The position numbers and the translations under genes are program-made. Under the pieces are notes generated by a model that saw only the letters and a list, made by a program, of their open reading frames with translations, had not been told where the DNA came from and did not search any database. A DNA stretch of 64,000 nucleotides. Origin: Balaenoptera acutorostrata. Taxonomy: Eukaryota > Chordata > Mammalia > Artiodactyla > Balaenopteridae. Location of the stretch: contig NC_080082.1 in assembly GCF_949987535.1 (NCBI RefSeq), positions 28,065,164-28,129,163 of the forward strand, read 5' to 3'. Of the stretch, positions 1,336 to 54,477 are shown in pieces (the stretch's first letter is position 1; the number at the start of each line of letters is the position of its first letter).

Positions 1336-4300
1336 CTGGGGGCAAGGGGAGGAGGAGGTATGGCATTGCTGGGGCTCCCTTGGCACGTCCTCCTCCAAAT
1401 CCCCCTCCAGCTGTCCATCCCTCAAGCTCTGAGCCAGTCAAAGAGGGAGCTGCCCCTCCCCCGCCCCAGGCTGGTCCCCTTCCTGCCTCTTCCAGAGTCA
1501 GCCATCCCCTCTGCCTGGCCAAGCGGCACCTACCCCAGCCCACAAGGCTCAGCTTCAGGAAGTAGTGCCCGATGTAGGTGTTAAAGACCTTGATGACGAG
1601 CAGGTAGAGGTGGAAGGCTTCCAGGCCCATCCAGGTGAAGGCACAGAGCAGGAAGTAGTGGAAGACGGCCCCCCGGGCCCAACAGGCAGCATCGGACCCC
1701 TTCAGGCCATGCCCCACATTGATGAAGAAGGCCAGATTCAGGAGAAATAAGCTGACGCTCAAGGCCACGTGGATCTTGGGGGCGTCTTCAAACTTGAACC
1801 TCTGCCGGGAAAACCTGGGGCAAGAAGGGCCAGTGAGAGGCTGCAAGGGGGCACCCAGGCCTCTCCATCTGACCACCTCTGTTCCACCCCTGCCAGCAAC
1901 CAGAGTGTGAGAACATTCCAGTTCAAGTCCACGAGCCCTCTCATGACCCGTAGGGCCCTATGGATTCTGGATCCTGTTGGCTTCATCCCTTGACTCCATG
2001 CTTGAGCCAAATTACCTAATTTGCAATTCCCTAAATGCATTCTGCTTCTCTACGCCTCCCGGACTTTGCCCACACTCTTCCCTCTGCTCTCAATGCCTTT
2101 CCCTGCTTCACCTTCAAAATCCCCCTTGGGTGTTTCTTTCTGGGACGGCTGTCTCTGAATGTCACTTATCCCAGGCCTATTTGGAAGCTTCCCAGCAGTG
2201 AGCGCGGTGTAACTCTCCACCCACCCCTTATTTCCGTCTCTCCCCAGGCTTTGACCTGGGGCCTCACACAATAAGCAGGAGGAAGCCCTGCGCTGGTTGA
2301 GTGAGTGGACAGACAGGGCGTGGATGCATGAAGCCTAGAACTGAGTAGGGAGGGTGAGGCTCAGAGAGGAACAGGGACCCAGAGCCAGGGGCTCCGGACT
2401 CCCAGTCCAGGGCTTCTTCCCAGGGCTCACTTCCCCCTCCGTGGAGTTCCCACTGCCAATTCCTAGCAAATCAGCTCCAAAGGACTCTCAGTGGAGGGAG
2501 GGGAGCTCAGGGCTGCCTGGAGTGGGCATGAGGGATAATGTCCACCTCACCTGAGATGCCAGGCCCCACCCTTGGGAGATGTCGACAGTGCCTCCTGGCG
2601 CTCCAAGCCCGTCTCACAGGGACCAGCAGTGCAGCCAGCTGGCAAGTCATGCTCAGCTTATTGCAGATGGATGCTCGGCTTATGAGGCCAGGGCTTGGGG
2701 GATGGGGGCAGGGGGGGCACCACTTACACTCACAGTTCGGTCCGAGATGGAGTGGGTGGGGCTGGTGGGGGCCTCAGCCCAGGGCCAACCAGTGCCAGCA
2801 TGTGCAGGAAGGCAGTGGGAGGGCCCCAGACTGGGAGTCAGAAGACCAAGGGCTGCTCCAGGCCCGTCATGGGTCGGGAGGCCAGCCGTGGGGCTGCTCC
2901 CACAGGCTCCTTCAGGCTGGCAGTTCCTGCGGGTCCCTCAGCCATGGCCGGGGCCTGGGCACAGGCTGCAGGAGCCTCTGGTGTTTTTGCTCCTCCTTCT
3001 TCCAGGAACAGCCCCAGGTTTCCCTGGGGAGCACCCTTCCCTACTCTCAGCCATGCGCTCTCAAACCCAAGGGCAGGCACTTGGGCGGCCTGACCAGTCA
3101 GTGTAATTCATCCTTCCACCACAGTGGCGTGTTCAGTCATGGGCACATGGTCTAAGTTAGACCAGTATAACTCAACTCTGGTATACATGGGATAAAACTG
3201 CACAGACATACACACACACACACACACACACAGTACATGCACAGGGTCAGCTTCCTTGGTGTATGACCTCTGCAGGGCCCTGCACTCAGAAGGGCCCTAT
3301 GCTTATTTTAATGCTCTGCTGTCACCATCTTGAAATTCTTAATAATTTTTGAGCAAAGGGTTACATATTTTCATTTTGGACTGGGCCCTACAGATGATAT
3401 AGCCAGTCCTGTGTGCGTGTGTGAACACACACACAATTGAGTGCATGTGGAAAATGGTGGAAACTGAATGAGCTCTGCAGTCTTGTTAGCAGTGCTGTAA
3501 CAATGTCAATTTCCTGGTTTTATATTGTACTACAGTTACAGAAAATGTCATCACTGAGGAAAGCTGGATGAAGGAACCATGGGACTCTAGGTACTATTTT
3601 TGCAAGTTCCTGTTAGTCTATAATTATTTCAAAATAAAATTTTTAAAATTTATATATTTATGTATTTTTATTTTCGGCTGCATTGGGTCTTTGTTGCTGC
3701 GCATGGGCTTTCTCTAGTTGCAGAGAGCAGGGGCTACTCTTCGTTGTGGTGCGCAGGCTTCTCATTGCGGTGGCTTCCCTTGTTACGGAGCATGGGCTCT
3801 AGGTGTGCGGGCTTCAGTAGTTGTGGCATGAGGGCTCAGTAGTTGTGGCTCTTGGGCTCTAGAGTGCAGGCTCAGTAGCTGTGGGGCACGGGCTTAGTTG
3901 CTCCGCGGCATGTGGGATCCTCCCAAACCAGGGCTCGAACCCGTGTCCCCTGCATTGGCAGGCGGATTCCTAACCACTGTACCATCAGAGAAGTCCAATA
4001 AAGTTTTTTTAGAAACTTCAATTCTGGGCCTTAGTTTAGAATATTAGCTGTCCAGGCAGCTAAGAAGCTATGATGCAAGCCTGGGGCTCCCCAAGGCCCC
4101 TGAGGATGGAGAAGTTGCCTGACATGACTGACAAAGGAGAAAGCAAAGTTTTGAGAATCAGAGGGACACCAAGTCCTGGAGACATCTTTTGAGCCCCTGG
4201 ATCCAACATCACCTGAAGTGAACTCACCTTGGGCTTTTCAATTCTGTGAACCACACATTACCTATTATGTTTAAGCCAATTTGAGTTGAGTTTCTGCCAC

Positions 4301-7300
4301 TTGTAACTGAAATAGCCAGACACATTTCAACCTCCAATCCCATTTTATAGATGAGGAAACGGAGGTTTGGAGAAAACATCAGTGTAATGCTGCACGACTA
4401 ACACTACCCTGCTGGTTTCTACCCTGCCCTGCTGCCGCTCTTGAGGGCAGGAGGGAGATGTGGGGTGGGGATGGGGTGACCCACCTCAGGACAGCGTAGA
4501 GGACAATGGTGAAGGCCAGGAAGATCATGGAGGTTCCGCAGCCAGCCTGGGAAATGCGTGTGAGGGCCTTTACGGTGACTTGGTCCAAGACCGGCCTCTG
4601 TGGATGATCCCCCCAAATAAGAATCCTATCAGTTGGAGACCAGGCCCAGACACCCCAAAGGCCTGGCCCCTGCCAGGCAGCCTCCTCCCTGGGCCGGGAG
4701 CCTTGGCACTTCCAGAATCGCTAGGATGGCGGGGGGCGGGGGGGTGTGCGCCATTACCAGCAGCAGGGCGAAGAAGGTCAGGTGGTCACAGCGGCAGGTA
4801 GTCCTATTGCCTCCGAACTCTGTGGAGCAGCCCTTGGAAGACCAGTCTCCTGATGACCCTGGGGAGGAGGAGGGGGAGTCTAGGGGAGGGGACGGGAATA
4901 TAGGGAAGCAGAGGGGAGGGGAGGGCAGGGAAAGGGAAGAGAGGGGTCCAGAGAGGAAAGAAAGAGGGGAGGGGCCCTGCGGTTGGAGTCCTGTCCCCTA
5001 AGGAGCCCTTACCCTCCGCCCATCTTACCCAGGGAAGATCCTCCAGGCCCTACCTTTAGTCACGTCCCAGAATACACAGCTGAGGGTCACGTTCTGAAAC
5101 CAGAGATTGGGAGTCAGGGGCGAGGCAGGGGAAGTTGGGAGAGGGGAGAGGAGGGTAGGACGGGGACGGGGAGAGGACAGTGTGCTCTGGGTCTCAGCAC
5201 ACGCACGCGTTAGGTAGAAGCAAGTCTCAGCCTGTGGTCACACGGGAACGCGAAGCGTTTGATGTATCCTGGGTCAGCGTGTCGGGGGTGTGGGGAGGCG
5301 TGGGGCTGTGGCTGGCGGGGGCGCAGGTCTACAGGCACATGCCTTTAGAGGAGCGTGTGTGTGGGCAGCCGTGCGCGTGCACGTGTGTTTGCCAGGTCCC
5401 CTGGGCACCTCTGTGAGCACAGGAGCGGAGGGTGTCTGGGAGGCATGTGGATACATGCGTGCACAGGGTAGGCATGTGTCCATGGGCACAATTGTGTGTC
5501 TGGTCCTAATGGCTTCTCCCAGGTGGATGTGGGAGCATGGGGTGTGCAGAGTCCGTGTGTGTCTGCCCACATGCCCAGGGGTGCCCACCCACATGTCTGC
5601 CCCTCAGGAGCTGCCAGGCCAGGGTGGGGGACTCACAGGAGGCTGGTGCTGGTGGGAGAAGGTGATCTCCAAAGGCTCAGCCAGGCCGGTGACATTTATA
5701 TGACCCAAACTCAAGCCCACCACGTGATTGTTCAACACGTTGCTGCCGTCCTCTAGGCTGAGCCGGGGGCCCTGTGGAGGGACATGGGTGAGGCCAGGCT
5801 GCACAAGGCGCTGCCCCAACCCAACCCTGGTCAGGGCTCCTGGGAGCCTCTAGGGCTTGTGGCCCTTGCCTGGAGGGCAAAGTCTGGGGCCGGGGGACGA
5901 GGCAGGGAGTCATGGACGACCTTCTCCCTGCTGCTCCCTGTACTCTGCTCCAGCTGGGCCAGGGCGGGCCCTACACTCCAGGCCAAGCGGCCGCAAAGCC
6001 ATGTACCTGATGGCTCTCCGTTGCTGGTCTCCAGGCCTCCCCCGCCCTCTTAACTGGAGTGCAGGGTTAGAAGGAAGATCAGCCAGGAAACGGAGGGCAG
6101 TGGTGCCTACAGGTGGGGAGCACCTGCCCACACCAGCGCTCAGGGATACACATGTCCCCATGGGAGTGGAGACACACCTCTGGGGACATACCTGGTACAA
6201 ATTTGCAAGGGCCTGGGTACACTTGCTCATGTGAACATGGTCACACCAGGACACATGATTACGTGTGCACCAGGAATAAGGAAGGAGATGCATGTTTGTT
6301 CATGCACAAGGACACACAGGGGACATGAACACACTTGGGATACACATACAGGAGTCCAAGGGCACAGGTGTGGGCAGTCCAAACAGCTGAGTGTGAATAA
6401 CCAGCGTGAGCCTGCGGTCCACAGACCCTAGAGACGGGGGTCTGGGATGGCCTCGGCTGCTTTAGGAACGTTCCAGAGGCTCCTCACTTCCTCCATCCCC
6501 ATTGGGTCCCTCAGCAAAGACTCCAGAGACGGCCGGCATGTCCTGGGTAACCAAGCATTGAGCCTCAGCCACCCTGAGCCTCTCCTCACCTTGAAGACAT
6601 TCCCCGAACCAACGTCCAGGATGGTTATGGCCAACCGAACCATTGGCCTGCTGCCCTGCAAGGATTCAAAAAGGCTCCTGGGCAGCCGGACTCTGTCAGG
6701 GTGCCGGTGCTCGTCCTCTGTCACCTGCTTCGGAACCTGCAACCACAGACCCAGCCGCTCTGTCTTTCCCTGAGGAGCCCAGCCCCCAACACAGGTCCTG
6801 CCCCCCCCACCACTAGATGGAAGGAGAAACAGGCATGCTGGGTGGTGGGGCAGCACTGAGGACCGAGGACAGCTCTGAGAGGCAGGACACGTGGGGGCAC
6901 GGTCCAAGCTCTGCTCTGTCCAGGCTGTGAGCCCCTGGCCAAATCACAGCCCTTGTGGAGCCTCGGTTTTCCCAATATGGAGAACGGAGCCAGTAAGATG
7001 CCCGCATGGCCACCCATCAGGCTGAAAGTGGGCTGTGAAGGGGCGACACCTGGACAGGTCAGTTTGCAAGTGTGAGGGAGGGTCAGTTGTGGTGCTTTTG
7101 GTCAGGGTCCTGACCGCCGTTGTGCTGACATACGGCTATGGTGACAGTGTCTATTTTCCAACTCAGGGATAAATGGAAAGCGTAAGGCCATCAGGAAGGG
7201 AGACAGCAAGGGCCGAGAGGGAGGACACAAGAATTCACACTGAATGTGATATCCAGCCCCGCCCAACAACAACACATTTTGTAAAAGCTAAGAATGGTCA

Positions 7301-22744: not shown

Positions 22745-23230
22745 CCAGGGAGGGAGTGCTCCTCCTCCAGGGGTCTGGCTCAAAGCTCTGCCCCAACTCA
22801 TTTTCCCTGCGGGCCATCCTTAGATTAAAATGACAGGGGCTACAGAGTGCCCTCATGGTGATCACCAGAGACAGAACAGCTGTGGCACATTCCTGTCCTG
22901 GGCTGGGGCACAGGGCCAAGGATGCCACCAGCCTCCAAGGTCCAAGGCCTGCAGATTCCAGCCATGAGGGCCAGTCCAGTGGTGGTGCATTAAGACCAGC
23001 CTTCAGTCCCATTCCTGAGCCCCCTGAGCTGGACCCAAGAGGCAAGTAGCCCCCCGGCCAATTCAGAAGGCCCAGCTTGGGAGTCTGGCTGCCATGGCAA
23101 CAGCCGCATCCTTCCGAGGTCCTTGGGCCTTCTCAAGTCTCCGGCTGGCTTGGCCTGGCTGCAGAGGCCACAAGCAGCAGTGAAGAGAGACCGCAACTCT
23201 GCTTCCTCACATCGGCGGGGGGCTGGCGGC

Positions 23231-35733
<12,503 letters not shown>

Positions 35734-45206: not shown

Positions 45207-45412
45207 TGGGAAGAAGGGAGGGGAGGAAGGGGGATGGAGGGGAAATGGAGGGGAGAGGAGGAGGGAGAAGATGATGATACAGGGGAAGAGAGATGGAGGG
45301 GAGGGGGGTGAACAAGGGAAAGGGGAGAGGGGATAAGAAGTGGGGATTTGGGGAGGAGAGGGGAGCGGGAGCAGGAATGAGAGCAATGGTGGGAGGAGGG
45401 GAAGAATCATAC
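45207..45412. repeat. About 200-bp polypurine/polypyrimidine tract
   Basis: The plus strand is nearly all G/A with many GGGG runs. On the ADGRG1 sense strand it is pyrimidine-rich and starts about 190 bp downstream of the predicted noncoding exon donor at 45601. Confidence 0.85.
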
Positions 45413-45600
45413 CTGGATTCCTCCTTCGTGTCATCAAGTGGATTATAAATACATAAAGAGCATGAATGAGTGGGCCAAGGGCTCGCCTTGTTTGCAGGAT
45501 GCAGCTCGCTGGGGTGGTGGGCCAGTTTCTACCCAGTTCAAGAGGCCAGAGGGGCACTTTGAAGCTGAGCCTCCCCAGCCTCGGTCCCCGCCCCCCTCAC

Positions 45601-45688
45601 CAGAGCCTCAAACAAAGCGGGCAGCCTGGGAAGACGGGCTGCAAGTCCCAGCCGCCAACCCGGGAAAAGGGGCGCAGGTGACAGCAGC
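45601..45688 (-). other. ADGRG1: Predicted ADGRG1 noncoding first exon (exon 1m-like), 5' end uncertain
   Basis: Directly downstream (sense strand) of the RFX tandem element there is a CpG-containing stretch ending in a good donor, GGCTCTG|GTGAGG. In human the equivalent element sits just upstream of GPR56 noncoding exon 1m. The start of transcription is not visible, so only the donor is well defined. Confidence 0.4.
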
Positions 45689-45739
45689 CCCTGGCAACCG
45701 TTGCCCTGGCAACCGTTGGCAGCTGCAGGGACTACGTCA
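45689..45739 (-). promoter_or_regulatory. ADGRG1: RFX X-box tandem element and CRE-like site of the ADGRG1 exon 1m promoter
   Basis: Two perfect 15-bp copies (sense strand CAACGGTTGCCAGGG) occupy 45689-45703 and 45704-45718. Their junction forms a full palindromic X-box, GTTGCC-AG-GGCAAC (complement 45700-45713). A CRE-like GTGACGTA follows at 45732-45739, with a CAGCTG E-box between. The arrangement agrees with the known RFX-responsive element upstream of human GPR56 exon 1m, which drives expression in progenitors of perisylvian cortex. Confidence 0.8.
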
Positions 45740-46289
45740 CTGCCCAGCTCCAACCCAGCACAGCGCAGGCCCTGATTTGTCCTGTGCCCAAATCCCCTTA
45801 CTTGGATGCTGGCCAGGTAGGGAGCTGGCAGGAAGAAAGGCAGAGTTTAGGACACCAGATTATGGGGTACACTGGGGGACACCTGCCTAAGTTTGTCAAT
45901 ATTGACTTTAAAAGCAAATCTTTTTAGAACACTAGTGGGGGCTACCCCTGTGATGAAAAATGCCTACTATCAGCTACATTTGCCCCTGAAGGCTGCCAGC
46001 TTGTGGCCTTGGCCTTGACCCACACTAGACACCCGTCTAATCTCCACCACTGGCTGCCATGAGCACAGAATGTGCACAATGCTTCCCTGGAAGCATCTTA
46101 GGGGAGTACCTCCTCCAGGAAGCCTTCCCAGATTGCCACAATCCACCAGGAATCTTCCTTCTGAGTTAGCCCTGGGTCTGGGGGTTCCCCCTGGCTTTCC
46201 TCCAGAGCTCCCTGGGGGCCAAGAGTGGGTCCTTTCTGTACCCCAGAGTGAGTACCAGTCTGGGGAGGGAGGAGAACAGAGGCAAAGCT

Positions 46290-54215: not shown

Positions 54216-54477
54216 TGAGTCACAGATTTCTCAGAGGGAGGCTGAGAGGGGGCAGGGCTGAGAGAGCCGAGGCGGGGACACTGGGGGATGCCCATGACTC
54301 AGCTCTGGGCAAGGGGGCACTTCAGCCTCGCCCGCCCCCGATCCAGGCAGACAGGTGCCAGGCTTCATGGACGGGTGCTGGTCAGAGATAAGTCTTCCTC
54401 CTCGCCCTCCATCTGTTACTTCCCCAGGGCTGTTCTCCACAGAGTTCCCGCCGAGAGGCCAGAGTTGCTATGGCAAC
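54216..54477. promoter_or_regulatory. Candidate enhancer: AP-1 pair, GATA site and palindromic X-box
   Basis: Within 262 bp there are TGAGTCA at 54216-54222, TGACTCA at 54295-54301, AGATAAG at 54386-54392 and the full X-box GTTGCTATGGCAAC at 54464-54477. It lies about 18.7 kb upstream of the ADGRG1 start codon. The activity is inferred from motif clustering. Confidence 0.4.

Follow-up and report, generated by a model that had tools for sequence, protein, structure and literature searches.

A perfect 15-bp tandem repeat upstream of ADGRG1 in a baleen whale, with a predicted RFX X-box at the junction of its copies

A 15-bp unit repeated in tandem upstream of ADGRG1 in Balaenoptera acutorostrata probably corresponds, in a baleen whale, to the 15-bp RFX-binding element known from the ADGRG1 exon 1m promoter, carrying a junction-made dimeric RFX site that would be lost in an all-or-none manner. 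The repeat lies in a stretch of 64,000 nucleotides, the whole of which was analysed and is hereafter called the window. We infer positional orthology with the human exon 1m element, occupancy by an RFX dimer in the whale, and that what counts is losing the dimer site and not some other feature.

The unit CCCTGGCAACCGTTG occurs in exactly two head-to-tail copies without a mismatch, and the perfect repeat ends at both outer borders, which bears out the claim of the initial annotation that two perfect 15-bp units are present (45689-45703 and 45704-45718). That annotation had given the interval 45689..45739, of which 45689-45718 is the repeat, while 45719-45739 lies outside it and carries CAGCTG, which we take to be an E-box, and ACGTCA, presumably a half CRE/ATF-like site. 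The features of the repeat and its flank are as follows.

45689..45703, no strand assigned: repeat copy 1, the 15-bp unit
45704..45718, no strand assigned: repeat copy 2, 100% identical to copy 1
45720..45725, no strand assigned: CAGCTG, adjoining the repeat
45734..45739, no strand assigned: ACGTCA, with 15 bases between the repeat end and this motif

Simple-sequence runs excepted, this pair is the sole perfect two-copy tandem with a period of 12-40 in the window, and any perfect tandem pair of period 15-40 arose in 1/200 dinucleotide shuffles of the whole window. This rarity argues against a chance or neutral tandem duplication elsewhere that would not be the ortholog of the human element, and so does the presence of an RFX motif in a unit of 15 bp, the length given for human, on the upstream side of the right gene; such an origin seems extremely improbable, the point in its favor being that orthology to the human element is probable and not certain. 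The surroundings (45600-45799) have a GC fraction of 0.65 and a CpG observed/expected ratio of 0.44 and therefore do not form a CpG island, which, together with the matches to MYB, E-box and CRE-like motifs that the repeat and its immediate flank contain, counts against the favored reading. A scan of viral contigs for a degenerate version of the element was uninformative and gave no match.

The neighboring gene had been annotated as ADGRG1, and this identity was confirmed by tblastn, structure searches and a protein search. With a human ADGRG1 protein sequence as a query, tblastn placed the coding exons on the minus strand, from 35733 to 23234. Against solved structures, the exon at 34696-35121 matched ADGRG1 only, and the exon at 24844-25113 returned ADGRG1 as the first of 9 matches (E 9e-49), followed by ADGRG5 (3e-9). 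The initial annotation had named no strand. Because ADGRG1 is on the minus strand and starts at 35733, the repeat precedes the start codon by about 10 kb and is read by the gene as its reverse complement, a position upstream of the coding exons that agrees with that of an ADGRG1 exon 1m element. The gene features are listed below.

23231..35733, minus strand: ADGRG1 coding exons, 13 blocks, GT-AG spliced, start codon at 35733
45380..45688, minus strand: presumed exon 1m promoter/first-exon stretch, assigned by position only

A donor-like CAG/GTATGA is found near the low end of the latter stretch. The spliced ADGRG1 open frame has 686 residues, with the acceptor of block 5 picked by likeness to human among in-frame options that gave 685, 686, 692 and 694. 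No AG is present 18 bases before the acceptor of the exon starting at 27613 (27614-27640), and therefore the six-extra-residue form of the human sequence seems to be unavailable in the whale. In addition, a 50-bp unit occurs in two copies, 98% alike, at 29203-29302, in the ADGRG1 intron after the exon starting at 29616.

Weaker tblastn matches on the minus strand at 5.7-1.5 kb (1532-5753) belong to a neighboring paralog, probably ADGRG3. In P0001 and P0002, public protein predictions for Tursiops and fin whale, ADGRG1 is joined to this downstream neighbor, and these fusions are either an annotation artefact or a read-through transcript. The search of public proteins with the deduced ADGRG1 protein gave 382 matches among 7992 scored candidates, and six proteins taken from the best 120 of the 382 were compared. 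Among cetaceans, the whale protein is identical to that of fin whale at 588/595 aligned residues and to that of Tursiops at 624/643, both compared proteins being predicted fusions; one of the seven residue differences from fin whale falls at the fusion point. Among other artiodactyls, the values are 616/686 for camel, 611/686 for cow, 615/684 for pig and 541/577 for hippo, whose protein is partial. As for repeats, all SINE probes of the CHR family (5/5) matched, while seven other SINE probes (two ruminant, and pig, carnivore, primate, rodent and horse) gave no match in the window. Taken together, the protein and SINE comparisons make a baleen whale the most likely source, perhaps one other than the fin whale in view of the seven differences. 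A tRNA-Glu called by ARAGORN and Rfam at 318-391 overlaps a stretch resembling the head of a CHR SINE, and is therefore probably not a working tRNA gene; it was the single hit to RNA families, at 319-390.

The X-box of RFX1-4 targets is described in a passage of PMC5752003 by the consensus GTNRCC(N0-3)RGYAAC, and 45700-45713 fits it as a predicted site. The whale junction shares with this canonical palindrome all 11/11 constrained positions, matched on both strands, and the 2-bp spacer; it differs in that its palindrome arises at a tandem junction, with further half-sites 1 bp away. On the plus strand, the half-sites follow in the order GGCAAC (45693), GTTGCC (45700), GGCAAC (45708) and a degenerate GTTGGC (45715), of which the second and third, pointing inward with CT between them, form the full X-box and the outer two each lie 1 bp away. 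The first GGCAAC, together with the adjacent junction half-site, makes an everted GGCAAC-C-GTTGCC. The elements of this cluster, including candidate MYB matches, are as follows.

45700..45713, no strand assigned: full palindromic RFX X-box GTTGCC-CT-GGCAAC across the repeat junction, a consensus match
45693..45698, plus strand: additional RFX half-site GGCAAC within copy 1, not part of the full X-box
45715..45720, minus strand: degenerate RFX half-site (GTTGGC on the plus strand) at the end of copy 2
45698..45703, minus strand: match to the MYB consensus YAACKG (CAACGG on the minus strand) in copy 1, candidate only (consensus from a passage of PMC2797782)
45713..45718, minus strand: the same MYB consensus match (CAACGG on the minus strand) in copy 2, candidate only (consensus from the same passage of PMC2797782)

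The strict palindrome GTTGCCNNGGCAAC has one exact occurrence in the 64-kb window, at 45700-45713, against 0.03 expected, and at least one occurrence was found in 3/100 shuffles. Moreover, 3/30 of the GGCAAC/GTTGCC half-sites of the window fall inside 21 bp at the repeat. The loose consensus GTNRCC(N0-3)RGYAAC is unremarkable alone, with two distinct sites in the window (45700-45713 and 54464) and at least one match in 119/200 shuffles, and its expected presence in most shuffles is one of the points against the favored reading. The second of these sites, GTTGCTATGGCAAC (reverse GTTGCCATAGCAAC) at 54464-54477, precedes the start codon of ADGRG1 by about 19 kb and could mark an alternative first exon or an enhancer, or could be due to chance. 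Another string, GCTGCCATGGCAAC at 23088-23101, is a 10/11 X-box match about 130 bases beyond the ADGRG1 stop codon and presumably lies within the ADGRG1 3' untranslated region.

The site at 45700-45713 spans the two copies, and the initial proposal that the X-box is made only at the junction, its palindrome being absent from either unit alone, thus stands, although the absence of a palindrome from a single unit holds only for the chosen unit boundary. Because the 15-bp unit consists, in circularly permuted form, of the 14-bp X-box plus one C, the same letters can also be read as an intact X-box flanked by two half X-boxes. For the same reason n tandem units hold n-1 full X-boxes, and therefore the loss of one unit removes every full site. 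In the proposed mechanism, the GTTGCC half-site begun in copy 1 lies two bases from the GGCAAC of copy 2, and the resulting junction X-box would be a canonical seat for an RFX1-4 type dimer, flanked by one good and one degenerate half-site. The loss of one unit would take the number of full X-boxes from one to zero, not from two to one, and would leave behind a good half-site and a degenerate one in outward-facing orientation.

When one 15-bp unit was removed in silico, no consensus X-box remained, and 16 placements of the 15-bp deletion gave one identical product. The best remnant, GCAGCCCCTGGCAAC, matches 10/11 constrained positions with 3-bp spacing and is present in both the intact and the one-unit sequence, which counts against the favored reading; matches of 10 or better are ordinary, with 20 distinct sites in the window and 20 Markov-simulated controls averaging 22.75 (range 15-34). 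The earlier statement that one copy is not enough therefore stands for the consensus X-box, which is gone from the one-unit allele, but is too strong for RFX, since this allele retains a full RGYAAC half-site and a likeness to the MHC class II X1 box.

The X1 likeness of a single unit is a further point against the favored reading, and it bears on an alternative in which each unit would serve RFX or RFX5-type complexes as a half-site like the MHC-II X1 box, adjacent units would act additively or cooperatively, deletion would halve occupancy, and the palindrome would be incidental. We take the probe GATCTCCTAGCAACAGATGCGTCATCTC to be the HLA-DRA X box. In a passage of PMC4806502 this MHC class II X1 probe is listed as the XBP1 probe, and each whale unit shares 11/14 letters, counted by eye, with its X1-type portion CCTAGCAACAGATG. 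The pattern CCTRGCAACNGNTG finds both units without mismatch, as it must by construction, and two other places with one mismatch, the total of 4 matches being reached in 3/100 shuffles; it was written to cover both the unit and the X1 probe and is therefore no independent test. In addition, passages of PMC3414849 describe X-boxes with only one strong half-site, and a half-site RFX5 motif appears in a passage of PMC5838959. Against such a dosage effect, the junction half-sites, 2 bp apart, make up an exact canonical palindrome and neither unit is directly followed by an X2/CRE box, so that we regard this explanation as rather improbable. The whale element also differs from the MHC class II X1 box in having two tandem copies with no X2 box right after the unit, and an X1-X2 module of the MHC-II type was rejected on spacing, as ACGTCA begins at 45734, 15 bases past the second unit. 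In view of its X1 likeness and of the X-boxes described with just one strong half-site, one unit by itself may retain some binding at lower strength, and a full loss of RFX binding upon unit deletion may go beyond the sequence result.

The two YAACKG matches, one per unit, could instead indicate a composite RFX/MYB element, in which CAACGG would span the 1-bp gap between outward-facing RFX half-sites and the loss of one MYB site would contribute to the defect. A comparable arrangement is described in a passage of PMC2797782 for the MBS-1 cluster of the Rfx2 promoter, where a MYB consensus also lies within two RFX half-sites; the whale element differs in its two tandem copies and full junction X-box, and its MYB site is a candidate only. 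However, YAACKG is common, with 57 matches in the window on both strands, and MYB is therefore a candidate co-factor only; the passages on the human element in PMC6685065, PMC7790743 and PMC8988201 name RFX, not MYB. A composite role of this kind is thus very improbable.

The favored reading, a counterpart of the exon 1m element with a dimeric RFX site at the junction, draws on what is published for human GPR56/ADGRG1. The human element (Bae et al. 2014, Science) is known from a brain malformation, and the mutation reportedly takes out one copy of a tandem 15-bp pair. According to passages of PMC6685065 and PMC7790743, an RFX site is disrupted by the 15-bp deletion in human, in keeping with the earlier suggestion that RFX proteins are implicated, and a passage of PMC8988201, citing Bae et al. 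2014, mentions binding of the GPR56 promoter by several RFX factors. Reviews that cover human and mouse studies state, in the relevant passages, that the 15-bp deletion alters or removes GPR56 expression in the lateral cortex. The whale and human elements share the gene, the position upstream of the coding exons, the 15-bp element and the RFX site, as far as the published passages describe them, and differ in the host, a baleen whale, the human element being known here through PMC7726139, PMC6685065 and PMC7790743. Among the matches listed, the GPR56 passages hold no statement of the junction geometry, which is not proof of its being unpublished; the GPR56 passages of PMC13026096, PMC10793202, PMC9630472, PMC5744476 and PMC8766818 have nothing on a tandem structure. 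Among the literature matches to short strings of the element, none carries GPR56 in the title or the start of the abstract.

With regard to cortical folding, cetaceans are described in a passage of PMC5744476 as the most gyrencephalic mammals. A passage of PMC7726139 reports conservation of the deleted 15 bp across placental mammals, with, inside the 15-bp element, human and mouse one base apart and human and marmoset two. A folding-specific reading was set aside on the human-mouse comparison, the mouse cortex being smooth; with one human-mouse difference and two separating human from marmoset, whose cortex is near-smooth, there is no obvious relation between conservation and folding. The presence of the element alone is no explanation of folding, given its reported conservation in placental mammals generally and its near identity in mouse.

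A stronger claim, that the element is an all-or-none copy-number switch with full X-boxes equal to copies minus one, is possible but doubtful. If it were true, slippage to one copy would abolish, and slippage to three copies would double, the dimeric RFX sites in one step, copy number would give mammals a natural means of adjusting GPR56 expression by cortical region, and selection would keep two or more copies. The biology most likely comprises the expected ortholog of the published element, together with a testable geometric detail read from its letters. On this analysis a baleen whale seems to have kept the element intact, and the layout may give a simple reason for the harm done by the loss of one copy. 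The effect of a known non-coding mutation in human would find a concrete structural explanation in the junction geometry, in that no dimeric RFX site would be left once a unit is lost, and this geometry predicts the behavior of one-, two- and three-copy alleles.
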